From: Bryoerythrophyllum caledonicum
Taxonomy: Eukaryota > Streptophyta > Bryopsida > Pottiales > Pottiaceae
DNA length: 64,000 nucleotides
Assembly (NCBI GenBank): GCA_963971425.1
Contig: OZ020521.1
Coordinates: forward strand, 10,619,519-10,683,518
Direction of reading: 5' to 3'
Of the stretch, positions 3,757-40,473 are shown one piece after another. The position numbers and the translations under genes are program-made. Numbering within the stretch: the stretch's first letter is position 1; each line of letters starts with the position of its first letter. A model generated the notes under the pieces. That model saw only the letters and a list, made by a program, of their open reading frames with translations, searched no databases and was not told the DNA's origin.

Positions 3757-3989
3757 ATGGAGTACAGTTTCTGGAGAACCGAAGTGAAAGATTCCACGGC
3801 CGCGTGGACGCTGAAGATGTCTCGCACCTTACATACATCGGGACCTTACATACATCGGGAAATGTGTTCTATGCAGGAGATGCTTGCGCTCTTCCCGACG
3901 GACAACGCGCTCTTTGAGAAGCTGGTGCTGACGCGCGAGTGCCGTGGGTCGGATCATTCGTGTGGGAAGCACTAGTGCAAAACAGTGTT

Positions 3990-4200
3990 CAAACACTACT
4001 ACAAACACTATCCCAATAGTGTTTCAACCAGTCTCAAGCATTTTCATGGGCTGGTTGAAACACTATGAAAATAGTGTTTGAAATAGTGTTTCAAAGGTAG
4101 TGTTTCAACCATGTTGAAACACTACTATGTTGAAACACTATAGCTGCGACAGTGTTCCAACATCTTCACATTTGTAGATGTAGCTGCGATAGTGTTTCAA
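3990..4200. repeat. CACTA left subterminal repeats
   Basis: At least seven copies of a GTTGAAACACTA-like 12-mer in direct and inverted orientation, matching those at 8335-8455. In this superfamily such units bind the transposase. Confidence 0.8.
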
Positions 4201-4708
4201 CATCTCCAATTCGTAGATATTGGACACCACGGAAGAATCTCTATTTCAGTGGATTACAGTATCTAAAATCTGGAGATTCCAATGTCTCAAATCCCTAGAT
4301 TTTAGTATTTCGGACCCGTAGATTCCACAGACGAAATTCGTAAATCTCACTTGTCAAAACATAGATTATAGACCTGCAAACCGTAGATATTCAAGCATTC
4401 AATCTGTAGATATTCAAGCATTCAATCCATAGATTCAAAACATTTGAGAAGTGGAATTCGAACGATTGATCCATAGATTTCACAGTTATAATTTACATAT
4501 TACGAACTTGTGATCCATAGATTACCTTCTCCATCCAAATACCCGTAGATTTTCTAAAATCTATTAATATGCCTTGTTCTTCCAGCATCCCGAGGGAGTT
4601 CTACATGCTAAATTCCGTAGTATTCCTGCAGTAGAAAAAACTTCATGTGAGATTCAAAGTCTACTGAATGTGAGATTGTAACCACGAGGATGCGATCGGT
4701 GAGCTTAC

Positions 4709-5586
4709 ACGAGCCACGAGGCTTCCAAGTCGAAACTCGGGGTAGCTTCCATTGAAGTAGTTGCAATATCTGCGAGATAACAGCCACAAATCAACACCTT
4801 CCAAGTAAAACCTCAAAACGACGCCAAATTCGATACAAGTACTTACAAGCTCATATTGGCTTTCGTTGCCTTGAGCAACGGAGGCGTCGCTATCAGATTA
4901 GGAAGCGAGTCTTGAAGCGAGTTCCTCGACAAGTCCCTGCGGACAGCAATCACATGAGCACGTATACAAACAATCATATCAATGTAACGATTCATGATCA
5001 GAACTTACAATAGCTCAATGGGGATATTCACCACCCAATCCGGAAAGGAGCCAGAAAGAGTATTTTGACCCAAATGCCTGCGCACTGACCATGAACACGC
5101 GACGTCAAACTCCCACGTATTCGATAGGGTTTTGAACAAGCTTATATTTCGAAATGCGAGTAATGTGCTTACAACTGCTTTAAGGATGTCATCGCCTGCC
5201 AACTTGATGGAATGTATCCCGTGAGGTCGTTATTGTATATCAGCCTGCATCGCATTGCAGAGAGTGAGAAAAGCTGGAGCAAAATCATTTAAAAACATGG
5301 TCGACTCGGAAGCTTAATTATATCGAACTTACAGTCTACTTATGTTCCTCATGTTTCCCCACGATGAAGGGAGCCCACCCCAAAGCGTGATCGAATGCAT
5401 ATTCCTGCAAATGATAAATCAACATGAACCTTAGCCAAATGCTCCTGTTCAAATCATAACGTGATCGCAGTTTACAGCTTCACGGAATGGGTCTCTACGA
5501 AAGGATTCACGTACAAGTATTGCAGGTTCACCAGACTGCCGAACTCAGGTGGAATTGGCGATTTATATTGACTGCCCCACAAAGTC
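4709..5586 (-). pseudogene. Captured LRR-receptor gene fragment, six exons inside the CACTA element
   Basis: Minus-strand exons at 5515-5586, 5333-5404, 5173-5244 (72 nt each), 5009-5077 (69 nt), 4847-4936 (90 nt) and 4709-4769. All are bounded by AG and GT sites (GTACGT, GTAAGT, GTAAGC) and joined in the same phase (break after the second base of a Leu codon). One LRR per 72-nt exon is typical of plant LRR receptor genes. Visible repeat cores include IPPEFGSLVNLQYL, GGLPSSWGNMRNI, LTGYIPSSWQAMTSLKQL and LSGSFPDWVV. The spliced frame of about 145 codons has no stop. No signal peptide, transmembrane segment or kinase is present, so it is a fragment of an ectodomain carried as cargo. A putative upstream exon near 5830-5880 does not keep the frame. 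Confidence 0.85.
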
Positions 5587-7140
5587 CTGCAAGCATTAAT
5601 GACGAACAGGCGTCGGTCAAAACTCTAAAGACGGCCAACTGATTATGTTTCAGACTGCTCTAAATTCCAAGTACAGCTGCAGCGTCATTTACAACTGAAA
5701 TCGCTCCACATGCATCATGTTTCCACTACATGAGCACATGCAGGCCGCTTCACCACTCGAGGATCTGATGGTCATTCTGCATCACAGCACAAGCCTATGA
5801 TTAAGGAGATCACTTACTGGGGACGGGATCTCTACTCCATCACAACATATCTTGAGTATTCGTCCCATTCACCTGCAACCGGTGCTTCGTATCCTGCGCA
5901 CATGCCGACTTAAAAGATCAGCCAGCTTAGCCAAGTGAATCACAAAGTTTGAAGCATGAGAACCTGCATGGTATTGACTCTAGTAGCCAGTCATAAGCTC
6001 TGGCTTGAGTGGATAGAATGTCGTGACAGTCAACTAACAAACGCATATATCGTAAGAATCTGTTAAGAAATAGCTGCCAGATTGTAGAAGCTCCTTGTTA
6101 TAAGCACACAAGAAGGCGGAAGATGGTCGTCAGTCAGCCACACTACAAAGATTCTCGAGAAAGAAGCCTCTCAACCTTGTATAGACCATCAACAGCATCA
6201 CGCCTCCACGCTAATCACATCATCGCCAATTCCTCTGCCTTGTCGATATCACTAGCCTCAGTATAACCCACTCGGATTCTCGTCACACTGGACTGTACAA
6301 CCATTTCATACACCGCAGAAAACCTAATTTCCATCAAAAAGCATCAACACTAACTGAATCACGAATTTCCCTCGCTCAGTCCACATCTCCCAGAGCCGAC
6401 TACACTTCAAGTCCTGTCCACACCAATTTGCAGTTAACTATTTGCCCCAGAAACCACACTTTCTTCATTTCCGTAACGCCAAACATTACCGTTAAAAGAA
6501 GATCACCACCACGACTCACGAAAACCGTAATAAACTGCAAACAACCTAAAACCATGCTCCCAAAACCCTGAAACCTGGATGCTACAACCACTCGCCTCAA
6601 CCTCAAAAACCCACCATGAGAAACAGGACAGTCACACCAGATGCTCGAATTCCAATCCCCCCAAACACAAACCGGGCAAAATTGACGAAGTGAACCACCG
6701 AACTCAACAAATTCGACCCATTAAACCATCCAAACCCTCCCGAATTCCACACTAACATAAACAACATACGCAAGTCCCACAAAGGAAAAAACCCACCACC
6801 GCCACGAGTGAAAAAAAAGACGCCAACACATAACCAACAAACAAAGCTCAAAATCCAGCAACAGAGCACCCACACGAAAGCCCAAGGTCACAACCTCCCA
6901 AACCAGACCACCCCAAAAAAAACCCACTTGAGAGAAACATCCCCCAACCCATGTGAAACGGAAAATCCTTAAACCCCACCGAATGAAAATACACACCTGA
7001 CCCAATCGTGCAAACTCCTCCCACAGCTCGTGAGGTCCGAGAGCGAGGCAAGCTCCAGATGGGAAGAGTCTGAAGGTCCTTCTCCTTGGCAGCAACCCAC
7101 TGACTCCCTCCTTGGTCTGCAATTCACTAAGTTACTCTCC

Positions 7141-7149
7141 CCAACTCTC

Positions 7150-7184
<35 letters not shown>

Positions 7185-7188
7185 TGTC
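7141..7188. repeat. (CT)n microsatellite
   Basis: About 48 bp of nearly pure CT dinucleotides. Read on the minus strand it is a GA tract upstream of the possible captured leader. Confidence 0.9.
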
Positions 7189-7909
7189 TTTGTTACTAGG
7201 CCTATACATAATTCATTCAGAATTCATACAAAAAGCACTTTCTATAAAGCCAGGACTTGGACGCTATGAACCCTAGAACTCTATTTCCAACTCTAGTCCA
7301 TATGATTCCTTAAGCCGTTCCTCCATGGACAATGCCACATGCTACTTAAATTTAGCAACAAATAATTCAATAGTGCTCATTTGCTACCGGTCAGGACTTA
7401 ATTGCTCATGTAGAGCAAACTATGCAAGGACATTACTCGTCTGCACTACTACATAGAAGATTCATGCAGAAGAAAAACACTTGAATCAGAAATTCTTTCC
7501 CTTTTTCTCTTTTGATATCCCAGATGGCCATTCAAAATCGAAAGCAACATCCATGCCAGTCCTGCTGCAACTGCCGTATGACTTTAGATCTCTTATTCAT
7601 GTATTTGTCGAAATTATCTTGGCAGTTTGGGGTTAAAACATAGTCTTCTGATTAATTGTATAAATACTACTAAGGTTGTAAAACACGGTACTCTATAATA
7701 CCGCCTATGAACAAGTGCGATTTTTTCCTATGTTGTGGATAAACAAAATTCTTGAGAACCTAGGGAACATGGAAGGTTGAGTTTTATCTTGGATTGAGAA
7801 CAAACTACTACAACTGCAAATGAACAACCACTTTTCAAAACAACCCAATGATGTGACGATTAACGAAACTAATACACTACCTTCAAACAACACAAACTGT
7901 ATCTTAGAG

Positions 7910-7984
7910 AACATTTTTTTTTTGTTTTTTATTTTTTATTTTTTATTTTTTATTTTTTATTTTTATAAATATTTTTTTATAAAT
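7910..7984. repeat. (TTTTTTA)n low-complexity tract
   Basis: Tandem T-rich 7-mers inside the CACTA element; no coding meaning. Confidence 0.9.
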
Positions 7985-8334
7985 TTATTGAATTTGGTTT
8001 TGTATAGTGTCCAGATAATATTCACGAATGACATAAGCAAATGAATGATAATGGGTGACCTGATCCACGTAATCTTCATAATCAAGTTTGCAAAGCAATA
8101 GTGAAAAAAAGGCACGGGAGATTAAAGTTTGCCAGGTTCCCAAACCGTCTCGGCGGAATTGGATGGTCAATCATCGAGGAGGTTCCCGAGACGTTCCCTA
8201 GAAGTTTTCATTAACATTTTCCTAAACTTGAATAAATGTTCATTTCGTGATATGTACTTGGTGTAACAATCTTTGGCCTGCGATGATATAAAAAAACAAT
8301 ATCTAAGAATACTTGATTGGATTAAAACACTATC

Positions 8335-8455
8335 CTAGGTTGAAACACTAACTGAGGTTGTGATAGTGTTTCAACCGAGTTGAAACACTATCTCTCAATC
8401 TTCATGGTTGAAACACTATCCCAAACCACAATAGTGTTTCAACATAGTGATTCAA
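8335..8455. repeat. CACTA right subterminal repeats
   Basis: About six GTTGAAACACTA-like units in both orientations, mirroring the left end. Confidence 0.8.
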
Positions 8456-8986
8456 CACTGTTTTGCACTAGTGAAGTGCCGGGAAGACATAGCCGATCTG
8501 GTAACGCCCAACGTCACCGCGCTCGAGCGGCTAAATGCGGGTGCGTATTGCATTTCTTCCAGAGATTCATCTCCAGCCGCGGACGCCCAAGCGGTGGCGG
8601 GGCCCTGCGATGCAACCGATCGCTGAAGGAATCTGAGTATCGCTGCACACTAGAGGAGCTCCACGAGCTTGAGCGAGTTTTCGTACCAGGTCCGGGTCAC
8701 GAAAGCAACACCTCTCTCTCTACGCTCAAAGTTCACCTCGCCGGGAGTTGCCCTCCAATGGTCGATTGCGTAGTCACCCTGGCGCAATTGAACGGGGCGA
8801 CGGTCGCCGCGTCGAAGGAGGTGATTGTCTACGCTGAGGACAACCCAAGCCGGTTCCCGTGATGCTCATGAGCTCTGATGATTCGCAGCCACATCCGGAC
8901 AATGGTTGTATGACTCTTTCGGGACTCCGAATGCGTACTCTGTGTTTGCACGGGACCTGGCCAATGGATGAACTTGTGCGGGTGTT

Positions 8987-10145: not shown

Positions 10146-13100
10146 ATGGCGAACTCTGACGAGAGCAACATGGTTGGTGAAATATCGTCTAAGCTAGGCA
10201 CTAACGCCCCACCACACACCACTCCTAGGAGAGACATAGAGATCAAGATTCCAAAGACCAGTAGATTAGATGGACAAGTGAACTATCAAGTGTGGTCTTA
10301 TAAAGCGCTTGCTAGAGAAGAACAATGTGTAGATCTACTGCACCAAACCTAGATCTAGAAATGCAGCTGCAATAGAAAGAGAAGGGAGAAAGATCACCTT
10401 GCAGGCAATCACAGACTCAGTCAAGGACTCCATGATATCTATTGTATGCAGATTTGAAGATCCGCAACTCCTGTGGAAGGCGCTCAATGACCGCTATCAA
10501 TCCAAGTCTCGATCTCGGAGGCTCATGCTGTTGCGGAAATTAGTGTCACTACAGAAGGAAGATAGCACAAGCATGGAACAATACATCACTGAGGTCAAGG
10601 ACGTCATGGACCAGCTTAAGGGTATGGAGGTAGAAATCCCTGAAGATCTATGCACCTTGTTACTACTAAACTCTCTGTCATCCGAATACAAGTTGTTCTG
10701 TAGGACACAAACAGGAAGAGACACCTTACCATCTTTTCTGGAGATAGAGTCACATTTGCTTGATGAAGAGATGCAGCTAAGCATGGATGCAAATAAGGAA
10801 GAAGATGCACAAGCACTGGTGTTCAAGAAACAATTGCGACGTCAAGGAGATCGAGCAACAAGCCGACATGGAGACAGTTGATCGGCGCGCACGCAACGCC
10901 ACTCCCGCAAGCAAGGCGGCAACAACAAAAGACCGCGACACAAAGGCCGCAGTGCATGAGCCTCAGGCGGCGGCACGAACTCACAAGGCGGCGGCGGCAG
11001 CGGACAGCAAGGGCGCAGAGATAGAACATGCGGGAAAGCCCACAGCGGCCACCGATGCTACTCCTCCCCTTCTCAGAGAAACCCTAACGAGGATCGGCCC
11101 TATCACCGTGGCCAACACAGGCCCTATGAACGTGGTCAAAATTGCGACTCCACCAAAGAAGGGCAGGAGTGTCACTACTGTAGTGAGCATGGACATTTTG
11201 CCCGAGACTGCATTAAGAAGGCTATAGACTGAGTAAAGACATTAGAGGACAAGATCAAATATCATCAACCCCGGCATAAAGCGCAAGCAAACAATGTATC
11301 TTATGGTAAAAACTCAAAACTTGACTCCGACTCATATCAAAGTAGCAGTGAGAGTGCGGGAAGCATATTAGAAACATATCTATATGAGCTCAACGAGATT
11401 GAAGCAAACACCACCATGGGTCAAGAGGGACCAGCATGGGTGCTAGATTCAAGAGCCACACACCATGTAACTGGGAATTCAAACCTAGTGCAAGATTTTG
11501 AAGCATGTGCTAGCAGCACCTCTATGTTAGCCGCCCGTGGAGAGACACATAGAATTGCAAAAAAGGAGATGTAAGCATTAATTTCCCTAGAGGGAAATAC
11601 AAGCAATTTAAGAATGTTCTTTATGTGCCTGGTATTCGTCGCAATTTATTATCGGTTCGGCGTATTGCGGATGAAGGGTGCAATATCCAATTTAACTGCA
11701 AGGAAGTGTTAATCAGGGATGAACATACACAAGACATCATTGGTCATGGAGCTAGGATGCATAAAAGCTTATATCAGTTAGACCTCTCACCAGTTCATGA
11801 GGTCCATTTTGTACAAGTTAGTGATCGAATGCGATCCAAAGTACTTCTTTGGCACCAAAGGCTAGGTCATATTAATTTCAAGACATTACACACCATGTCT
11901 CATCAAAGCATTGTGAACGGTTTACCCAAGTTACCTTATGTAGACATAGTTTGTGAAACATGTCAACAAGGCAAACAAGAGCGTTTTCCTTTTTCCCCAA
12001 GTACTTCTCAGACTACCAATATCCTTCAAGTTATTCATACCGACGTTTGTGGTTCCATAAAAAAACCATCATTCAATGGCGCCAAATATTTTGTTACTTT
12101 TATCGATGATTATAGTCGAAAACTATCGATTTTACTTATCAAAACCAAAGACAAAGTTATTGACGAATTCAAAAAAATTAAAAACCGCATAGAGAATCAA
12201 ACATGAAAGAAGATTATTACACTTGTACGGACAACGGCACCGAATATATGTCTTTAGCCTTCCAACAACTCCTCATTGATTCCGGCATTCACCATGAACA
12301 CACACAGTATCACACTCCTCGAAGCAATGGTGTTTCGGTGCGCAAAAAGCGGACTATAGTCGAGACGGCTCGATGTCTTTGCTTTCAACACAACATTCCA
12401 TCTTACTTATGGTCCGAGGCTATCAAGACCGCCACTTATATTATTAACCGAGTTCCTACTCGTGTTTTAACCAACACGACACCAAAAAAAGTTTTTTCTA
12501 GTATAAAACCCGATTTATCCCAGCTTCGTGTATTCGATACACGAGTCTTTGTCTACATTCCAAAAGAAAAAAGGTACAAAATGTCTCACAAAGCCTCTAG
12601 TTGTATTCTTCTTGGTTTAGATGAATCCACTAAAGGATATAGATGTTATTGTCCATACACACATCGCATTATCATTTCCAGGGATATTAAGATCGATGAG
12701 GAAAACTCATGTCACACCCCCCCTCCGACATTCCTTCTCTACTTGAAGCTAGACAAGGTCATTTCAGACTTGTGATTCCTCATATGGACCTTAGAGAAGA
12801 TACCATTCTCTCCATTGATAGTACTCAACCTCAAGACGTGATACATTTCCCACCTTCACCCCACACGACTACAACGGAGTCCGCACCTCACTCCAACACA
12901 CCGTGGCATTCATCGACTAAGGATCCATCACCAAGTCACCCACCACCACCACCCCTCTGTCATTTCAGCCGTATCAAACGACCTTCAGTGAGACTCAAAG
13001 GTTTCGTTGGCAATACAGAGAATTCAAATTCCACCTATAAGGTAGCATTAGACGACCCCAATTGGGTCCAGGCAATGCACGAGGAAATTGACAGCTCGTA

Positions 13101-13424
13101 GGACATGAAGACATAGACACTCACAAAATTACCTCCTAGGCATCATGCCATCTCATCCAAATCGGTGTTCAAGTTGAAACCTAAAAGTTGATCCTTGAAA
13201 GATATAAAGTGCGTCTAGTTGCCAGAGGTTTTCAACAATTAGAAGGTATAGACTATCATGAAACTTTTGCATCAGTAGCCAAATACAACACCATCAAAAT
13301 GGTCACCGCTCTCGCTGGAACTTTGGGTTGGGATATTCATCACATGGATGTCAAAAGCGCCTACCTCAACAATTACTTAGAAGAGAAAGTATATATGCGT
13401 CAACCACTTGGGCACATTGTTTAA
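10146..13424 (+). pseudogene. Copia gag-pol remains
   Basis: Domains in Copia order: a gag capsid-type region (from 10146), a CCHC zinc knuckle (near 11,170-11,215, CxxC...HxxxxC), the GAG-pre-integrase HxxLGH-type segment (near 11,850), the integrase core (about 12,020-12,500, DDY and NG-type motifs) and the start of the reverse transcriptase (13,190-13,424, with VARGFQQ and HHMDVKSAYLN). Order gag-integrase-RT is diagnostic of Copia against Gypsy. The coding region is broken; treated as a fossil. Confidence 0.9.
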
Positions 13425-14924: not shown

Positions 14925-17460
14925 ATGATGGTTTCAAAGCGGAGTCGTGGTAGTTGCAGTACAACAGAGGCCGTAGTTCCTCCAAATTTTGACTTAGGTT
15001 TGGATTTTGAGGAAGATGTTTATCTTAATGTGAGAAGAGAAACATATAATTGCTTCATGTTACATAATGATACTATCCGATATTACCAGGTTAGTTCTCC
15101 ACCTAACTTTCGCTGTTGATGATCCACTCGCAATATGTGAATTATATCTGTGTGCTCAAAATAAATGGTACTAGTGAATTATATCTATATCTTTATGTTG
15201 TGAATGATACTAGATTTAATCTGATTTGATCAGAGTGTCTTTTCAATTGCACGAGCTACAAAGTAGTATCGCTGATTCATCCAAACTCAAATTCCCTTCG
15301 GCCAGGTAATTACTTCTGATTTGCATGCTCGCATGCATTGGTATATTCTTTTTTGCACTTGGCAACCTTGTTTAATGACATGTTTCTTGCTTTGCACAAG
15401 GGCGATGTGCAATGTGCGAAAGGTGCAATTGTAAACGATCAAGTTCATGGACAACAACTCACGATATATTTGACTCCCGAAGAGGCATCTCACTCTGGAT
15501 TTGATGACTTCGATGAGGAGGTGTTCAATGTTGAGATGAATGCAGCTAATAAAGGTGGTACTAGCAAGAGCAATCAATGGTGCAAGAATCGTTTTAATGA
15601 TTGGCGTCAAGACAATGGTATGGATTTGTCCACTCTCTTGAAGAAATCCCTCTTCATGACCTGTCCAAGATGCTTGTGAAGTTTTTTTTTGTTTCAAAAA
15701 AAAAGAATGGAAAGCACTATCCCAGTCAGTCACTCATGCAGATCTACAAAGGTCTAAATTGTATTCTCTGCAATGCTTAAAGAGAGAGGATAGATGTTTC
15801 TGGTATGCATGAGGCTGAATTCATCATGCATAGACATCCTTTTTTTGGACGTGTCAATAAAGTTGTCATCCTAGCTATGAAGAGGAGCATCTAGGCAAGG
15901 GCAAACAAGAGTCGAACGAAGGTTGACTTCTTCACGGCTGAAGATGAGTTGAGGATTTTGTCACATCCTGCTCATTAGGTGGACACACCTGAAGGCGTGC
16001 AGAAGCGGTTTGCAATGTACTGCACCCAGATTTTCTTCATCAGAGGTAATATGGAGCTATACAAGTTGCTCCTCATGGATTTTTTGCTTGGCTTGACGAA
16101 CAACAACGAGTCTAGTGCTTGCAATATGATGAGATTGTCTCCAAGAACCATGCTCCAAGTTTGTCCAAGTACCAAGTTGAACGTTTTAGAGATGTAGTGT
16201 ACTCGTACGATGTTGATGTCATTCAAACCTTCAAGGTATTTGTTGCATACATACGGGAGGATTCAGGTATTGGCCATTTCTTTCTATCCCCAAAGAAGTT
16301 TAGAGATGCCGCAGCGGCTGCTTTTGAAGCTGTCTGGTTTTGGAAGAATTCTAACTTGGGAAAGTCTATTGTGCATATCTTTATGAGGGATATGGCAGCT
16401 ACTCTAGGACTTGTTGGAGATTTCACCAACAAATCAGGCACGGTTACTAGCATCACTTGCATGATAGCATCAGATGTGCCCATGGATGTTATTGCATCCA
16501 ATACAGGGCACAAGAATGTTAAGAGCATTGAGAGATACAATCGTATCAAGAACCTCAAGACAAGAGCAGCTCAAGCAATTCCGAGGCCAGAATATCAAGG
16601 CTTGAGCTTTGAAGACATGTTGTCCACAGAGATGCCTGACTGGCAACGTCATGCACAGCATACACTGCAGTTGAACAACACTGTTGTGCTTGAGAAGATT
16701 AACACTATTGATAGTGCTGGTGCATGTGCCTTTACGTCCATATTGGAAAGTGGCAGGCATATTTCAAGTAACAGGGTTGTCTTTGCTCCAGTAAGGTTGA
16801 TGCAAGCTCGTCCAGTTATATGCAACTCATCTGGAACTGTAGAGCGGACTCCTTCTTTGGTAGAAGCAGAGATGAAATTTCTTGCCGAATATTATGAGGA
16901 TTTCTTGAATGATGATATGGAAAGTAATCTTCCGACATGTCACGTTCCTGAAGCTACCCAGGAACTCGGTTTGCTATGCAGAGGAGCCTTGCTTTACTCA
17001 GGAGAGAGAATTCTAAGTTATGTGACGAAATCAATGTTAGTGCCGCAGGTCGAAGCAGTGCCTGGTCCATGCCCTCCATCTACGTTATTGAATACACAGG
17101 TTATTGAATTAGTGCCGCAGGTCGAAGCAATGCCAATGTTTAAACATCCAGCGCAGGTGCCGATGTTCCACCATGCAGTACAGCTGGTGCTGCAGGTCGA
17201 AGGAGTACCTACGTTCCAGCCCATGATGCAAAATACAGGGAGCCAGCCAACTATGATACAGAGTGCAGAAACTCAAGCCATGAATCTAACGGTAAGTACA
17301 TGAGCCTGGTTTTTTTGTTCGGTTTGAGGCACTTGCTTGTTGTGTGTAGAATCGCACTTTGAATCAGCTGCAATTTGTTTTGCATATGCAGTTGCCATTT
17401 CAACCATACAGTAAACCATACCGTTTTCTCCCATCATCTTGGAATGATGGTTCCTGGTAA
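14925..17460 (+). pseudogene. Crypton-like (DUF3504) tyrosine recombinase gene, decayed
   Basis: Segments align in order with the DUF3504/Crypton recombinase family: an N-terminal SAM-like part (SNQWCKNRFNDWRQDNGMD near 15,570-15,625, then DLSKMLVKFFFVSKKKNGK), an IFFIRGNMELYKLLLMDF helix (about 16,030), WFWKNSNLGKS (16,335) and TGHKNVKSIERYNR (about 16,505). The conserved HxxR region reads NKSGTVTSIT, so the catalytic His and Arg appear replaced. Frameshifts lie near 15,635 and 16,110; in-frame stops at 15,778, 15,891 and 15,976. The 3' part is well kept: a C-terminal segment with three VPQVEA-like repeats, a GTAAGT donor at 17,292, an acceptor before 17,392, and a final exon to TAA at 17,460. 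An upstream exon from ATG 14,925 to a donor at about 15,090 may belong to it. Domesticated or transposon origin cannot be told. Confidence 0.68.
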
Positions 17461-21912: not shown

Positions 21913-23171
21913 TCAGATATCGAGCTTCTTCTGAATCTCCGCCAGAGTCTTGGCAGAGTTGTGCAGCTGCTCGCGCTCTTCGTCTGTCAAGGGGCTGTCC
22001 ATGACGCCCACGATCCCCGCGCGCCCGATCTCCGCGGGCAAGCTGAGGTACACCTCGTCCTCAATCCCGTGAAACCCCTGCGCGCACACCGAAACCGGGT
22101 GGATCCGCCGCTGATCACGCAACAAGCTCTTCACCAGGCTCGCAGCGGAGTACCCGATCGCCCACGACGTGTATCCCTTCAGCTTGATCACCTCATAGGC
22201 ACCATCCACCACCAACCTGCCAGGGGTAGACATCAGAAAACGTGGAGGTGGAGGTGGAGGAGAAGCAGGAAAGCGTTGGGGGTTACGTCTGACCTGTGGA
22301 GCTCGGCGAGGGTATCGGAGCTGTGATCGATGTTGTGGTGCTTGAGGTAGGAGATGAGCGGGATGCCGCCGACGCTGACGCTGGACCAGAGCGGCACGGA
22401 GCTGTCGCCGTGCTCGCCCACGATGTAGCCGTGGACGTTCTGCGCGTTGACGTCCAATCGGTCCGCGAGGAGCCAGCGGAAGCGCGAGGAGTCGAGGTTG
22501 GTGCCCGAGCCGATGACGCGGTTGGGCGGCAGCCCGGAGAGCTTGTACGCGACGTACGTGAGCGCATCGACGGGGTTGGAGATCACAAGCAGCGTGGTGT
22601 TGGGGCTGTACTGCACCAGCTGCGGGATGATCTTCTTGAACAGCGACACGTTCTTCTCCACGAGCGCCAAGCGCGACTCGCCCTCGCGCTGGCGTGCGCC
22701 GGCAGTCACGATGCAGATGTCGGAGTTCGCAGTCACCTTGTAGTCCGTGTCGGCCAGGATGCGCGCGCGTGGCAGGAACGCCGCCGCGTGCTGCAGGTCC
22801 AGCATCTCGCCCTTCAGCTTCTCCTCCACCACGTCCACGAGCGCCAGCTCGTCGCACAGGTCCTGCGTCAGGATGGTCTGCGCGCACGCCATGCCCACAT
22901 TCCCGACTCCCACCACCGTCACTTTGTACGTCCGCCGCTCCTCCAGCTTCGTGCTCGTCACCGACCCTGGGATCGCCTTGAACATCTGGCTCGCCACCGT
23001 CTGCGTCACCTTGAACGCCGACCCGGGCGCATGCTCCGCCGCCTCCGCCCTCCAATCGAACACCATCTTCGCCTTCGTCGCACCCGCCATGTCGTCCGCT
23101 CGCACCAGCCCCTCGCCCAGAAAACTGCTCGCCCTCTCAGTAATCCCGATCGCCCCTGCTACAGCACTCAA
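21913..23171 (-). CDS. LDH: L-lactate dehydrogenase
   Basis: Two exons, 23171-22294 and 22216-21913, with a 77-bp intron (GTCAGA...CAG) that breaks the codon after LH; joined they give 393 aa. The enzyme interconverts pyruvate and L-lactate with NADH, normally in the cytosol and important in low oxygen. Visible motifs: NAD-binding GVGNVG (residues 88-93), the specificity loop ARQREGESR, where the Gln marks lactate over malate use, NPVD, the substrate-binding SSRFR, the catalytic His in GEHGDSS, and the C-terminal ...EIQKKLDI. It is longer than the usual ~350 aa because of an N-terminal tail. Met28 ([13 protein letters not shown]) is a second possible start giving 366 aa. Third positions are strongly GC-rich, which produces long antisense open frames. 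It looks intact. Confidence 0.95.
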
Positions 23172-25342: not shown

Positions 25343-28300
25343 TTAATCATCTGAGCTTGAGGATTCTTCATTGTGTTTTCGCTTTCGTTTTGATCGGCAA
25401 ACATTTTGGGGAAGAGAAAGCCCGCGAAGCACCACTGTATTGTCGCCAGGTACCTCATCGCAATCCTCATCGTCTGCATCATCGCCCGATGATGAGAAGT
25501 TCTCCGTTGCATTTTCCAAGACTGGTGCCACGTACTCCTCAATCTCTGAGGCCAAGTTTCGTAATTGTAGCTCGGCTCCAGTAGTTGATGCGGCGTTCAC
25601 AAGTCGTTTTACTCGGATATTCTTCATTTTGTCTGTTACTCCATCCATGTTTTTGGAGCGGTTGCCTTTGGCCCCAATGACTCTCTCCGAGGTTCCACTT
25701 CGCCAAGGTCCCGTGAAGAAAGGGAGAGTACCATTGTTCTCGCCCCTCCGTGTCCCTAAATGGCTGCTCATAGTAGAGGACCCAACCCTCGCGGAGGGAA
25801 GTTGTGGGGTTAGTATTGCACGCTCCACACCACCATTTGGGCCGAGTGCGCTACGGTGGACGGGTGGCCGAACTATTGTTGAAGAGGTCTTTTTCTTTAC
25901 ACGTAAAAGAGTTCTTCCGATCGATGCGGTACTCTGATCACGGGGCCACCGAAACAAATCTTGTAGTGGCATGTCTTCCTCTGAGTCCGGTTCTATTGCT
26001 TGAAGCAAAACCGGAGAGCTTCTCATAACTTCAATGGACCCCGTGGTGGCCATTGGCTCATGGGATTCATTATTGTTTCCACCACTGCTCACTTCGTTTC
26101 CATCGTGAGGAAATGTATCGTTTGCTGCAATGCCAATGCCATGACCGTCGAGTTCAGCGCCATCGCCACTAGAAGGGTCCGAGGCGCTAGAGCCGTTTGA
26201 GTTGGAAGACTGATTCTCCGAGATGTTGTCATCTCCATCAAGATTGCCCCCCAATGCCGACCCATCTTCGTCTGCCCTAGCTTCTTGGGCACGGTCTTCA
26301 CCCGATAATTCTACTATGGTATGGACTGCCGCTCCGTCGACATCATCAAACACAAAAGGATCCACTGGGTCACCGTGGACGTTGTGAAAATGGTCATGTA
26401 GTGCATCTCCACCGTGCTCGTTGTTTGCAGAGTTGTCCCTAGGTGGGCTATGATCAGACACAAGGTTGTTGTCACCGGCAAGGTCTTCCCAATCGCCGCC
26501 CATCCAGTTATAACCCTCATCATCCGACTCCAAACCCTCGTCCTCTGTGTTTGAAGGAAGTACCCCATCTGGATCAGACTCCTCCGAATGCACATTCCCC
26601 TCATACCATCGAATCGGGTTTGGACGAGCAAGTTCTCGGAGCAATCGACTATTCGTGTAGATGTAAACCAAATCTTCCGCTTTCTGCACTCCCAAGCGAT
26701 TTCGGCTCTTACTATGCACGAACGAATACATGCTCCAATTACGCTCACATGACGAAGCCGAGCAAGTTTGTGCTAGTATACGCTTCGCAATGATAGGCAA
26801 TGATTGCCAGCCCACGCGGTTCCACCATTGGTGAGGCAAGAGGTTGTTGTTTTCAATTTCCCCAGCTTCCTTTGGTGAATATGGGCCTCGCAATTCTTCA
26901 TACTCCGTGATTTCGAGCATTACTGCCGAAAAAGACACTCCGAGTGGATCACAAAGTGTCATAACAACCTTGTTTAGGGCCCTTTTGGCCTCACCATTGT
27001 TTTCAATTTGCAACTTATTGGCTAGATAAGGATTCAATAAAGCCCCTACATAATGGAGATCTGTTGTCATCATCTCCCAATGCCGTAGGAATGATCCTTC
27101 AAGGCGAGTTGCAATTCCGTCAAGCATGTTGAATGGCGCATTGCGCAGCTTGAACACATGCTCCTTTAGCTTGTTCATGGTCACCCAAGCAATTCCCATT
27201 GCCGGAGTGTCACCATCAAAAGTCCGCAATGCCTTTAGTACTGGTGCCACTACAAATTCAAAGTTACTGCACCGATGCCAGAAAGTCTCGTCTAGAACGG
27301 TGGCTCGCACCTGCGATGCCTTCGCATGGGCACGGTGCCCGTTTTGCCTATCAAAAAGAGAGGATACGTAGGATATCCATGCTGGGTCTATCACAACCAT
27401 CTCCAGGGCATTCTTCACTTCCAATAGACGATGGATCATTATGTAATTGCATGCAAACCTTGTTGCTGCTGGCCACAACAAAGACAATTGTGGCGAAAAT
27501 CGACGAAAAAGGGCCATGGGCACATGGTGGTTCCGGATATACAATGCAATATGTTTTGCCTTCTGGACGAGGTCTGCAAACATGCCTTCCTTCCCCCAGT
27601 CCTCGAGGAGGAGGTCCAAAATATGTGCACAACACCCTTGAGTATATATGTGCGGGTACTCATCGTTGACCTTCTTCATTGCCCCCAACATGTTTGAAGC
27701 ATTATCGGTGCACACTTGGACCACATTCAATGGTCCAACCTTACGGATAAAACTTTTCAATTGGTCCCCTATATATGCCGTAGATTTCTTCATACCCGTG
27801 GTGTCTATAGACCCCAAGAAGATATCACCCATTGGACATACGAGCATGATATTCATGAGAGGGCGACGTGTAACATTGTCCCACCCGTCCGAGCATATTG
27901 TTGCCCCATACTTGGCAATATCTACGCCGGTCTTCTTGTCCACAAGGTCTTTCACTTTTTTTTTTAGAGGCTCAATGTATGTTGTCCTCATGGCATTCTA
28001 CGATGGCGGTGTATAATCGAAACCCGCCTTTGACGTTGCGAGGGTGGCCTTGATGAAGGCCGGATGTCTAACCACGTTGAATGCAACGTTGGCTTCATAA
28101 AAAAATTGTGCCCATAATTCGTCCAATTCTTTTCGTTTTTCTATTTGGTAAGCCTCTGGAAAGCTCCGTTGTCGTATAGATCTTGGTGTTGATGATGTTG
28201 CTTGGCTTAGAGGATTCGTGGACTGCGTGTTCTCCTCATTTCGAGTTTCCAAGAAACTACCTTGTTGGATGGATTGGCTAGAACAAGGTTTAGTGGAACA

Positions 28301-32703: not shown

Positions 32704-35700
32704 CTATAGAGGGGGGTTCGATGCGTCAGGAAGGGGTTGGTTGTTTTTAAGTTTTTGTTTATGCAGGAATATCGACATAGCATGTTGAATTGCAATAGTG
32801 TTAATATTAAAAAAGGTGGTTTTGATTGAAGTGACGGGGATTTTAAATGTTTCTTCAAGGGTTGTCATTGAGGGAATGAAGGTGGTGGCTCTAGCACCCG
32901 CAGTGATGACAATGAGGGGGTCTACTTTCCATCCTACTGCTTGAATATCGTCAAGTAATGGTTGGTATTTGTTTGTTTTGTTTGCAATAGTGTCCGGAGA
33001 GAATCTATCATTGCAATATGTGAATTCAATAAACTGAATAGTGAGACTCGGGTCTATGTGGTTTGGTGGGGGGTCTTTGTATGAAAGTCCTCTAACACAT
33101 AGTAGGTCCGGTTTGAATCTTGCATTGCAGTAGCATCTTTGAGTGTGACAAATGCATGGTAATAGCCAAGGAGGGACCGTATTTTCTTGTGGGTTGTCAT
33201 TAAAGGTTCCGGCATTCATGAGAATGAAGTACCGGGATTTGGTTGATGAAATAAGTAGTTTACGAATAGCCCACACGGCTATGTTATGTCTTTCGACAAT
33301 TAGTGAGTGTGTATGGGGGTTTTGGCACTTGAGTAAGACATGTAGCCATGTGTCCGGGTCCGTGCTGTTGCAAATTGGACATGTTATTGTAGGAAATCTT
33401 TCAATTCCGAAGAAGAGTTATTTGCGGGCATTTCCCATGTACTGTCCGGTGCGGAATTTGATTAGGCATGTGATTTGTGAGTCCATAATTATGGGGTTTT
33501 CCCAAAAATTGTTGGACAGTGCGTTGTGAATATTTGGGTTTCCGGTCCATTTATCAATATTGGGGAAATTTTCTATGAGTTTTTCCAGGTTATTTACAAG
33601 ATCATGTTTTTTGAGGTATTTGTCCAAGAATCGTATGGGGCCTTTGTTGGGAGTTTCGCCCATAGAAGGCCATTCATATCTATGAAAGTAATATGGGATG
33701 GCATGGGCGTGTTCGTATGGGTGTTCCGCATTTTTGTGGGTTTTTTCTCTTCCTTCCTTTGCTAGTTTGTCGGATTGTTCATCTCCGTCGATATTAGCAT
33801 GAGCACGGACTTTGTGGAGTGTAGTAATTTGTGTGCGATTTTGAAGCATTACAACCATAGATGTGAGGATAGTTTTGTCCAGGTGGTTGTTGTGTAAAGT
33901 GGGGTGTATTAAGGAGATATAATGTATTTATGCAATCTGTAAAAATGTGAGCGGGTTTGTTTGGGTATTGAGTGGTGATTATCTTAAGGGTTTTGTGTAT
34001 AGCCATCATTTCGGCTCTTAGAATATTTTGGTGTCCATGTAGTCTTTTACCTAAATTTATTTGTTTGGTTGAATTATATACCCCATAACCGGCTTTTTCT
34101 CGGTGCCAATGTCCCGGGCTTACTTCGGTTGGTTCTTTAAAAGAGCCGTCAGTATAGTAGCTAAAGTTGGGGTCGAATTTGAGGACGGTATTAATTTGGT
34201 AGTTGGGGAGTGGGAGGTTCAATTCGGTAGCTCGTAGTGCGGAGATGTTTGTGTGGGGGGTTTTAGACCATTTTTGGTTACAGTATACCCGGATTGAAAT
34301 AGGTGTGGGAGGGGCAATTGCGGTGTATACCTTGTTAATGTTTAGATTTTTTGCTATCAAAGTGAGATGAGTGAGGTTTTCTAGAGTGCCTATTTCTCGA
34401 GTTTGTTGATGTATACATAGGATACATAGGGTTGGTGGCTCAAGGCGGGGTGTTTGTATTTGCGGTGGTCTAGTGGGTTCTTTGTAGGTCATAGAGTCCG
34501 CTTCAAATAGTACTATGATGTGGGAGTCCGGGAATGGGCCTAAGTGTGGGTTAGAGTTGTGGTACCATTGAGTGTCTGGAGTAATAATAATGGTGATGTT
34601 GTGGTTGGGATCATTGTTTGCCGCTAGGCGTGCCCAGTGTGTTGCTTGTTGAGTTTCTGCTTCATTGCGAGGGTGTGCAAGGCCTATTCCGCTCCACCTA
34701 TAATCAAAGGCTTTTCCAAGAGAACCAAAAATCTTATCCCGTTCGAATGGAGAGTAGAATTTTGAAATTTTTGTGGAGCATGTAACGGGGGATGAGAAGT
34801 ATGAGTGTGAGATATTCATAGATGTAATAAGGTAGTTTAAGATGGGATCGGGTAATGTGTCGTGTGCATTTTTAAAGGGGTCATTTTTGGGTATACGGTA
34901 TTTATTTCTTTGATATAGCCAAACAATTTCAGTTTCAAATGTTTGGGGTATTGGTTCAATGCTAATAGGGTTTTGTAGTGCGTTGTGATATTGGTTCCAC
35001 AACCATTGTAGTCTATCGAGTGGTATGGTTATTAGGTGTCTGCCATTACCTTCGTATATGTGAGCATTATCTTGTTGTATTTTGATTGTGTTTGTTTGTG
35101 TGAGGATGTCCGTTTCGGAGTTGCATTTCGGTTGTAAAGATGTTGAGGAGGGGGATAATAAGAGGCGGCGTGACAAATCTTCTCTCTCAGGGTTGTACTT
35201 GGGGGTGGTGTAGTTGTATGATATTTAGGTAATAATTGTTTTGAGTTCTAAGGTAGTATTGTATGAGAATTTTGGTGTTATGTACGGAAGTATTTGGGTT
35301 GTGCCAAGGAAAAAGATTTCTTTGTGGGAGCCATTTGGCGTAGGTGGTGTTATTGTGGAGCCAATGGCATAGGTATGACGTATATTGCTTGCTTATGTTG
35401 TTAGAATCAATGTATTTTTTATGTTTGTGCGCGGTTATGTTGTTTATTGGGTGCATGGAGGGGTTTTTTAATATATGTGGTGGAGGGGCATGTGGTCGTC
35501 AATGTGGCGGGTTTGGAGGGGTTGGTGGGAGGTTAATGTTGGGGTGGATCTCATTGTGACCAATGATGTACGGGTCTTTAAGTGTGTAAGGTGGGGCGTG
35601 AGTGGTGCAAGGGTTGGGGCATATAGGGAGGCATGTAGGATGACAAAATAGTTGTTTAGCAATATTTGGTGCACTTTTTATTAATTTGTGAGGGGTACCG

Positions 35701-38700
35701 TAAAATGTTTTGTAGCTCTTGTCGTCCATAGGGTGTGTTACATTTGGTAGTGTAATTTGTTTTAGATCGGTAACGTTTGTGGAAAAAAGTTTTTGTAGGA
35801 GTTTGGCGGATAATTGTCGGTCAAGTCTAAGGAGGTTATGGATTTCATTTGCCCAATTTTGTTCTAGCAGCGTGGGGCCTAGTAGGAATTCTTCTAGTGT
35901 GCTTTTTAGAAATGTTTGGCCTTCTGTTTTGAGTAGAAAAAGTGTGCGGGTAATGGGAGATCAATGGCAATCAAATTTTTTAAGTCTTTGGAGGTATTGT
36001 GCTCCTCCAATAATGGCAAGGATGTGCCGAAGGAGTCCACAGTAAATTAGTCCTAGTCGTCTCTTGTCGTTAAGTGCATTTTGGAGTTATTCACCAATGC
36101 AACATAGATAGGCGTTTTTGAGGGAAAAAGCTTCTAATCCAAATAGTTCGTGGGGGAGTTGTGTTATGACATTGGGTGTACAATTAGGGAGTCCGCATAC
36201 TTTCTTTTGTATGGCTATGATTTTTTTATCAAGTTTGTTTATGGCGGGCATGGAATAAGGGACCGCATAGAAACTACATGAGATACGAGGACGTATGACG
36301 ATATCAATCATTTTAATTTTTTGTTGCAATGTAGCCGGACATATTGTAAGTTCCTTGCATTGTTTAATAAGTTTTGTAGTAGTAGCGTGAATTTGAATTT
36401 TCCATTTTAATGATGGGACTAGGTTTATTCCAAGGTATATGTAGGGTTGGTTTTGGTTGAGAACCGGAATTGGTTGGCTACGATAGTGGATATTGGTAGC
36501 TTGGATAAGGGCTTTGAAGGCCGTCGGATTTATTTTGGATTTGTTTGGGCATCCAGTTACGACTCATTTTTGGACCCCAAGTGCCATCCCGGTCCATAGA
36601 CAAAATTTGTCTATTTTGTCTAATTGAGTTTGGAGTGATTTAAGGCGGCCGAAGATGGCCGCTAGATCGTCGGCATATGCAGCCGAGTTTATGGTGACTT
36701 TTGAGGTGCCAAATGTGTAGCCATTATTACTCCTTTGGAGCCATCTCAGTAGAGGTTCTAGAAAAATAATAAAGAGGTATGGACTCAATGTATCGCCTTG
36801 GATGGTACCACGTTCGATGGGGATAGGGCGTGTATTACCAAAGAATTCTCTAGTGTATGTAGTGGTAGATTGGGAGTATATATTGCCAACCAGTGTGACT
36901 GCGTCTTCCGGGTACCCAAGATCGCTCATTATGGCTAGCAATCGAGGATGGTCAATGGAACCGAATGCGTTTTTGAAGTCAATGTGGAGTATGTAAATGT
37001 CTTTATTAGTGAATTTTGCATCCTCAAGAGCGGCAATGAGGGTTTGAAGTTGGCGTGTGGTACTTCTCTCGGCTCTAAACCCTTCTTGGCTTTCGTGTAA
37101 TATTTGGTGTTTTTCCCCGTAAGCCGATAATATTGATGTTAATGTGCTAGTATATAATTTGTAAATGGTGTTAGCTAAGGCAATAGGTCGGTGGTTAGGT
37201 AGCACGGATGGGTTGCCTTTTTGTATAGTAAGATTGTTAAACTTGTTTTCCAAGATGCGGGGATGGATTTTTGTTTGTAACAATGAAGGAAGAATAATGA
37301 TAGAAGGTCATGGAATCTTGGGGGCATGTTTTTAGAATTGAGTTAGGTATATGGTGCGGTCCGGGGGCTTTGTTGGTTCCCAAATTTTTTAGACACATGT
37401 TGTATGTGTCTCTGTTATAATATGTGTGGAGAGGTGTTGTTGGTTCGCCTCTTCTATCCATGGTAAATCCGTCCAAATCATGCCACGGGTATTGCCTAAC
37501 TCCGCACGTGCATGTTGATGTATGTTGTGGTTGGAAGTGACACGGGGGGGTGGATGGTCTATTGTTTATGGATTGTTGAAAATGTATTTCATTTAAGATG
37601 TCATCTGGGCTGGTTAGAGTATTATTGTTTTGATCTAAAATACAGTCTAGTGGCAGGTTTGTGTTGTTTTTAAAGACTTTTCTATTATTCTTTTTTGGGC
37701 TAGTTTCGTATAATTGACTATACTTAGAAATGGCTTTTTTGACACATTCGCTTGCATATTTTGTAGTAATTTTCCGAGCTTTTTTGTTGGCAGCTTTTGC
37801 AATGATTGCAATGTCTTTTAGCGAGTCTTCATGAGTTGTGTAGGGAAATGGTACTTGTTGGATTTGAGGGTGATGAAGGTTTTGTAGTTCAGAGAGTATG
37901 GGGTGGGTTTGCCAATTTTGGTTAGTTTTAGCAATGTAAATTGTTTTACGAATAGTGTGGTATGTGACAAGATGTTGTTTCCACTTTTTGGCTAGTTTTC
38001 TCGGGAGATACCCCCCTTGTTTCGAGGTTCTAGGTGTGAGTAGTGGAATGGGGGGCGCTTTACACGTCTTTTCTAATATAGTGGAAATTTCATTAATGAG
38101 CTTGTCAAGAGTCGTGCAAGCTTCTTGCCATTGTATGTGTGTGAGGTGTTGGTGGTTGGAAAGAATATCTGTAAGGGAGTCTATTTGTAGTGAGTTTTTT
38201 TCAAAGAATATTGTATTAAAACTATCAAGGTTTTCTTTTGGGATGGGGTTTAATATTTTAATATCATTTGAGTTGATGGTTGTGGGAGGTCTACTTATAA
38301 GGGTGTTGTGAGGTATATTGAGTTGGATTGGGAAGTGGTCCAAGTTTAAGTTGGTTGTGGTATTGGTGATAGATGTATATTGGGTATGGTTAGGTGTTTT
38401 AATGTAAAATCCATCGATTAGGCTATAGTGTGTGTAGTTAAGTCCACCTTGACGAGAGTATTGTGTATCGGTTGGGATTAAATATAATTCTGGGTCATCC
38501 GTATAATTTTGCCATTGATAGTCTATGTCTAGTGGGGGGGTAAAAACCCCTCCGTTTTGTCTTCCAATAAGGGCGATATCTTGGTTAAAGTCTCCGCAAA
38601 GTATTATAGTATGGTTAGTGTGTATATTTATTTGTGAAGTGATGGAATTTTGGATCTCTGGAATAAGCCTAGAGTCTTCTATGTGCAAAGGCATGTATAG

Positions 38701-39345
38701 ATGAAGAATGAGCCATGGTTGGAGGGGTTGGTTAGTAATTTCAATAATTTGAAGATATGGTGATATATTAGCTGGGCTAGGGATTTTAGTAATATTTCCG
38801 GGGAAGGCATATGATTGGTGTATGAGCATGAGTAGACCTCCTCTTGCCGGTGTATATGGCCTTCGTTGTTGGATGCATTGTGTGAGAGAATGAGTGTTAT
38901 TAAATATAAGTTTATAGTCGGGGAATGTTTTTTGGATGTATTTTGTGGATTTAGTAGCGGTTAGTTTAGTTTCTTGTATGGCAATTATGGCGGGTGGTGT
39001 GATGGTGTGGGTGGTTAGATTGTGGATGCATGGTAAAGCAGTGTTTAACGTTGAGGCGTTCCATGTAGTTATATATGTGTTTCTATTGTCTATGTTGTCG
39101 TGATTGCTAAATGTAGGGGAAATGTAGGCGGGTGTCGGGATGGGGTGCGTGTAAGCATGAATTGGTTCAAAGCATCTAAGAGCTTCAAGGATAAGATTGT
39201 GCGGGAAGTAGGGAAATTTTAATTGTAGTTCATCGGGGGAAGGTGGGGTTTGGCTATGAATAAAGTTATATAGGTCATTGTGTAGAGAGGTTTTATATTC
39301 AAAAAGGTATTGGTTTTCTTCTAGGAATTTGGTGTATGAGTGGGG
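32704..39345 (-). pseudogene. LINE ORF2: EN - RT - possible MTase - RNase H - Zn knuckle - C-terminal domain
   Basis: Endonuclease (about 39,110-38,240): TTWNAS, the catalytic Glu in IAIQETKL, ILCGDFNQD and NLDHFP. RT (37,283-36,090): HIDFKNAFGSIDH, RGTIQGDTLSP, AYADDLA and a YLG thumb motif. Between RT and RNase H, about 34.8-34.4 kb, is an extra domain with FGSLGKAFDYRWSG, GLAHPRNEAE and TQWYHNS. RNase H (34.16-33.72 kb): YTDGSF, RAEMMAI, IFTDC and the final Asp in ANIDGDEQSD. Zinc knuckle: CPIC...HVLLKC near 33.35 kb. C-terminal domain near 33.03-32.78 kb: FIEFTYCNDRF, GWKVDPLIVITAGAR. There are frameshifts near 37.25, 35.18 and 33.83 kb and in-frame stops near 36,565, 36,088, 35,968, 35,500 and 33,419, so it is inactive. 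Confidence 0.9.
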
Positions 39346-39813
39346 TGTATCTATATGTCTTTCAGGGGATTATGTAGAGAGGATAGGGTGTTTAGTAATA
39401 TATTTGTCCAATGTGTTGGGTTTGTGTTGGTAGAATGTTGGTTGGTGATATTGTTGCATTCGTCTATTGAAGGGTGGAGAGTGGTAATTAAGGCGAATAA
39501 GATGTGTGTGGATGGGTGGTTGTTTTTTTGATGTATGTAGCAAGAAATGTTGGGGTAGAGGGTGGAATAAGTTTCGTGAAGCATGTGGTTATTTTTTGGA
39601 AGTGGCGCAAAGGAAGATGCTAGGTGTTGATAATCGGGGTGGAGTTTTATAGTATTCGGAATGAAATATATTTTTGATACTCTTTTATGTGTTTTTGGAT
39701 GGTTGAGGAAGACATTTGGCATTGGGCCGGGGTTCGTTTCTATGTCTCCGCAAAGTATAATTAATAGTTTACAATGAGTAATGTGTATGGCTACTAGTGG
39801 GAGGGGTGTGGAG

Positions 39814-40185
<372 letters not shown>

Positions 40186-40473
40186 ATTTGATTTGTTTAG
40201 TAGTATGTAGATGTATCATGTGTTGCTGTTTATGTGTTTTTTTTAGAATCTTTGTATTTCTATAGTATATATATACTATATTATATATATTTTTGTTCTT
40301 GTTTATGTTTTTGTTGGATTTGTTGTGTTTAGTAGTATATAGATATACTAAAGTTTTTGTTTTTGTTTTTGTTTTGCATAGATTTTTGTATTGTTTTTTT
40401 TTTAAAACTACATATTATAGTATATATATATATACTGATGTGTATTGATTTATTACAGCGTTGTTTGACATTA

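Follow-up and report, generated by a model that had tools for sequence, protein, structure and literature searches.

The 64-kb stretch of DNA analysed here (the window) contains a CACTA element of 4504 bp, at 3970-8473, within which six LRR exons are chained on the minus strand. The features of the element and of its insertion site are listed in Table 1.

Table 1. Features of the CACTA element and of its immediate flanks, by position in the window
Feature	Position	Strand	Remark
Left target-site duplication, AAG	3967..3969	.	sequence read; equal triplets tested
Left terminal inverted repeat, 20 bp, CACTAGTGCAAAACAGTGTT	3970..3989	+	
Left subterminal block, 10 GTTGAAACACTA copies (up to 2 mismatches), both orientations	3987..4201	.	
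Left-only block, 10 CCRTAGATTT-like repeats (up to 2 mismatches) in 342 bp	4211..4552	+	
LRR exon 6, 61 nt	4769-4709	-	
LRR exon 5, 90 nt	4936-4847	-	
LRR exon 4, 69 nt	5077-5009	-	
LRR exon 3, 72 nt	5244-5173	-	
LRR exon 2, 72 nt	5404-5333	-	
LRR exon 1 of the open chain, 72 nt	5586-5515	-	
Remaining interior, no recognised protein family	5587..8320	.	
Right subterminal block, 7 GTTGAAACACTA copies (up to 2 mismatches)	8321..8456	.	
Right terminal inverted repeat, 20 bp	8454..8473	-	
Right target-site duplication, AAG	8474..8476	.	sequence read; equal triplets tested

Ends and subterminal repeats of the element

The terminal inverted repeats begin with CACTA and are perfect over 20 bp, and longer gapless arms of the two ends match at 27 of 29 positions. 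Transposition in the CACTA (En/Spm) superfamily leaves a target-site duplication of 3 bp, and AAG is found on both sides of the element, although flanking triplets alone agree by chance in 39 of the 1641 CACTA/TAGTG pairs that we tested (all pairs in the window lying 100-20000 bp apart). The 3970/8473 pair is alone among the 1641 in having both equal triplets and at least 9 bp of inverted repeat; the runner-up among the equal-triplet pairs has an inverted repeat of 8 bp, and the longest among pairs with unequal triplets is 10 bp (two pairs). Exact matches to CACTAGTG are confined, within the 64 kb, to the two outer ends of the element. The exact CACTA ends and AAG duplication (3967..8476) described in an earlier note on this DNA are thus upheld.

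With up to two mismatches allowed, the window has 26 matches to the motif GTTGAAACACTA, where 8.26 would be expected. Seventeen of these 26 matches lie inside the two end blocks, and the other nine compare with 8.3 expected window-wide; the 17 copies make up the subterminal direct and inverted repeats by which CACTA (En/Spm) elements are recognised. The CCRTAGATTT-like repeat of the left-only block is notable for its clustering only, because its count over the whole window is not above chance (121, against a shuffle mean of 112, with 18 of 100 shuffles reaching 121).

The LRR exon chain

All 12 splice dinucleotides of the six exons are AG/GT, and five of the six donors read GTAAG, the first being GTACG. 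The introns between the exons are, in order, 110, 88, 95, 72 and 77 nt long and are T-rich (T 0.351 versus A 0.233). When spliced, the exons give a frame of 145 codons with no stop, and both alternative frames contain stops; the five junction codons all encode leucine and are all split after the second base. GC content in this frame is 0.572 at third codon positions versus 0.428 at the first two. Of 20000 random sequences from an order-1 Markov model, cut at the coordinates of the real exons, 10 were open, a frequency in which the freedom in picking exon ends is uncounted.

These results confirm what the earlier note had said of six exons with good splice sites, three of them exactly 72 nt long, and of a frame with no internal stop. 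Its further claim that the chain keeps one phase holds for the five introns, which share a common phase, but not for the donor at 4708, which is in a different phase because exon 6 terminates on a codon boundary. Exon 6 also appears to fall about two residues short of the LRR consensus, from which exon 1 deviates at three positions.

Protein identity of the exons

The 145-residue translation matches the Pfam families LRR_1 (E = 1.6e-9), LRR_4 (E = 8.8e-8) and LRR_8 (E = 3.3e-7), all of which pass their curated cut-offs. A PDB sequence search with the same translation gave 199 matches at E ≤ 0.01. GSO1, a plant receptor kinase, heads the list, with 2.5e-75 for its ten stretches together and an i-E of 1.9e-13 for the best one alone, and the best 60 of the 199 are mostly plant LRR receptors or co-receptors, with two leptospiral LRR proteins included. 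The Pfam and PDB matches together point to a tandem LRR ectodomain of the kind that LRR receptor kinases possess.

The earlier note had called the parent an LRR-receptor gene. The LRR part of this identification stands, and the top PDB sequence matches are to plant LRR receptor kinases; however, neither a start codon nor a signal peptide was found for the exon chain, and no kinase family was found in the element. On these sequence matches, 'receptor' is a plausible label for the exons' source gene. The LRR type and its top matches also suggest a plant host. Plant LRR receptor kinases among the best PDB matches, such as GSO1 (PDB 6s6q) and FLS2 (4mn8), have LRR sequence in common with the element's exons, but the chain in the element has only about six repeats, and no kinase was found with it.

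Remaining interior and copies in the window

A six-frame Pfam scan of the element (X at stops, E up to 10) returned no family and no transposase. Its failure to find a transposase, a kinase or short exons is weak evidence, because it also overlooked the LRR exons, which have 24 residues each. Between 6 and 7 kb the minus strand is G+T-rich (GC skew -0.404 on the plus strand), and this stretch could represent an intron or untranslated leader of the minus strand. Exon-like pieces are present on the minus strand at 7116-6996 and 5872-5818, and are possible further exons of the captured gene; exon-like pieces upstream of 5586 could not be chained, and that at 5872-5818 meets a stop in the required frame.

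Elsewhere in the window, nothing matches the spliced LRR protein better than E = 0.65, and no second copy of the element's DNA was found in the other 59.5 kb, where the best blastn match is 25 bp long (E = 0.17). A scan of viral contigs gave five pattern matches, none of which (0/5) was confirmed by tblastn, and an Rfam search of the whole window gave no match.

Flanks and genomic neighbourhood

Joining the flanks at the empty site gives two open frames that are long, of 134 and 145 aa, and a third that is short; with two of them long, the joined flanks do not identify the insertion target. We therefore rejected the argument that a frame running across the empty site proves insertion; a part of one frame, 101 aa long, has no Pfam match. 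The left flank contains a perfect 17-bp tandem duplication at 3826-3859.

Judging from the Ty1/copia, hAT, LINE-type and lactate dehydrogenase matches in the window, the neighbourhood of the element is eukaryotic. Copia-type (Ty1/copia) remains in several frames occupy 10399-13101 on the plus strand (gag_pre-integrs, E = 1.7e-17; SH3_retrovirus, E = 2.3e-25; weak rve), and a hAT-type transposase lies at 25343-27991 on the minus strand (DUF659, E = 3e-32; Dimer_Tnp_hAT, E = 8.2e-6). A LINE-type region at 33794-38829 on the minus strand includes a reverse transcriptase match (RVT_1, E = 4.9e-27) at 36564-37283 and, at 33794-35176, a weak RNase_H match below its cut-off and a PCIF1_WW match just under its cut-off. 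A lactate dehydrogenase fragment at 22233-23171 on the minus strand comprises a complete N-terminal domain (E = 3.5e-46) and the start of the C-terminal domain, after which the frame breaks off, perhaps at an intron. A 394-aa open frame at 16119-17303 on the plus strand has a sub-threshold Phage_integrase match (E = 0.12) and is perhaps, on that match, a tyrosine-recombinase element. A long triplet repeat at 39794-40219 translates as poly-Asn or poly-Val.

Probable origin of the LRR fragment by capture

With six LRR exons lying as a coding-gene fragment between its inverted repeats, the locus is very probably a non-autonomous, Pack-CACTA-like element of the CACTA (En/Spm) type carrying an LRR-coding gene fragment. 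The structural side of the capture proposed in the earlier note is borne out, in that a single CACTA unit, with the target-site duplication at its outer ends, encloses LRR exons whose splice sites are intact. As gene-fragment capture goes, it appears to be a good example but an ordinary one.

Such an element would receive its transposase in trans from a related autonomous element, and everything between the CACTA ends would move as one unit. The LRR piece would have been taken in at an earlier stage; the simplest route is that two insertions close to each other lost their inner ends and then moved as a single unit. This follows the model set out for Pack-TYPE elements in PMC8903248, where a pair of adjacent insertions whose ends are compatible is mobilised together with the intervening DNA. 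The same model is given again in PMC13317346, where captured fragments are described as usually non-functional, with some expressed. Two matches with three mismatches to the terminal inverted repeat occur inside the element (6803 and 8096), and the window total of 12 versus 7.35 expected is not beyond chance. As loss of the inner ends belongs to the fusion model, their being missing neither favours nor excludes it.

Under capture, the exons would be a passenger, intact through the recency of the event rather than through use of their product. We take passenger status as the default because captured fragments are usually non-functional, although some are expressed (PMC13317346) and can be spliced, as described for the exons that soybean Tgm-Express1 contributes to host transcripts (PMC1947982). 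If transcription reads through the element, its exons could likewise be spliced into chimeric transcripts.

Significance of the open frame

The earlier note had drawn attention to a still-open frame in the captured exons. We simulated neutral change in the 899-bp exon region, with random substitutions only and 3000 runs per level, and found that the frame and all splice sites survive in 63.2% of runs at 1% substitution, 40.0% at 2%, 11.3% at 5% and 1.6% at 10%. Because 40% of neutral runs survive at 2%, the open frame fits youth as well as function. Thus the frame is indeed open over its 145 codons, but this openness requires no selection, and a young passenger is enough.

An open frame with every splice dinucleotide kept would also fit captured exons that are expressed and act on their parent gene, either as a truncated LRR decoy or through antisense or small RNAs that silence it. 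Against this stand the failure to find a start codon or signal peptide, the persistence of frame and splice sites in neutral runs at both 2% and 5% substitution, and the deviation of exons 1 and 6 from the repeat consensus, with exon 6 also ending in a different phase. Even allowing for the soybean precedent, in which captured exons are spliced into transcripts (PMC1947982), we regard such a role, which the earlier note had raised for captured gene pieces of this kind, as improbable. It is very improbable that a secretable piece of LRR ectodomain is working cargo of the element, spread by it, transcribed and kept open by selection, so that a DNA transposon seeds receptor decoys; if true, this would carry more weight were the host to belong to a plant lineage other than the flowering plants. 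Should the exons prove to be transcribed, the decoy or silencing idea becomes testable.

Capture itself would be called into question if a resident LRR gene or pseudogene had gained its CACTA ends from two independent insertions, so that the unit was never mobile. The exons do lie near the left repeat block, the last exon ending at 4709 and the block at about 4552, and no mobile copy was found elsewhere in the window; however, the 20-bp match between the outer ends and the triplet common to both are what one insertion predicts, and exact CACTAGTG is found in the 64 kb at these two ends only, which makes a resident gene quite improbable. That LRR-like open exons were assembled by eye from noise has a negligible chance of being true and is refuted by the Pfam and PDB sequence matches: the exon ends were reader-chosen, and some freedom was used, but the best E-values (1.6e-9 in Pfam; single-stretch i-E 1.9e-13 in PDB) and the rarity of random open chains (10/20000) tell against it. 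We therefore retain capture of an LRR gene fragment by a CACTA element as the preferred reading; copies whose cargo has other limits, if there are any, would make the capture model testable.

Comparison with known CACTA elements

Among the matches listed in a literature search on CACTA elements with captured LRR or receptor-like kinase fragments, no title reported a case of LRR capture; a search on CACTA gene-fragment capture in moss likewise gave no such case by title, and the phrase sought in a search on 72-bp LRR exons was absent among the matches listed.

Host gene fragments inside the element, together with subterminal direct and inverted repeats, are features shared with the Chenopodium CACTA elements described in PMC8978399; those elements retain transposase domains, whereas none was found here by what is a weak scan. 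With the Pack-CACTA elements of Arabidopsis, rice and maize, as described in PMC8903248, our element has in common its CACTA ends, the coding DNA between its inverted repeats and a non-autonomous character (here, no transposase found), but it is known from one copy, within a 64-kb window. Tgm-Express1 of soybean (PMC1947982) is comparable in size, at 5.7 kb versus 4.5 kb here, and is likewise a CACTA element whose captured fragments keep their exon/intron structure; it carries five fragments and its transcripts have been sequenced, whereas the present element has one recognised gene type and is known from DNA alone. Gene-fragment capture by CACTA elements is already well described in soybean (Tgm-Express1) and in Arabidopsis, rice and maize (Pack-CACTA), and to these our element adds one case: a clean, fully bounded example in which subterminal repeats, a target-site duplication and a gene piece with its ancestral exon structure are found together.
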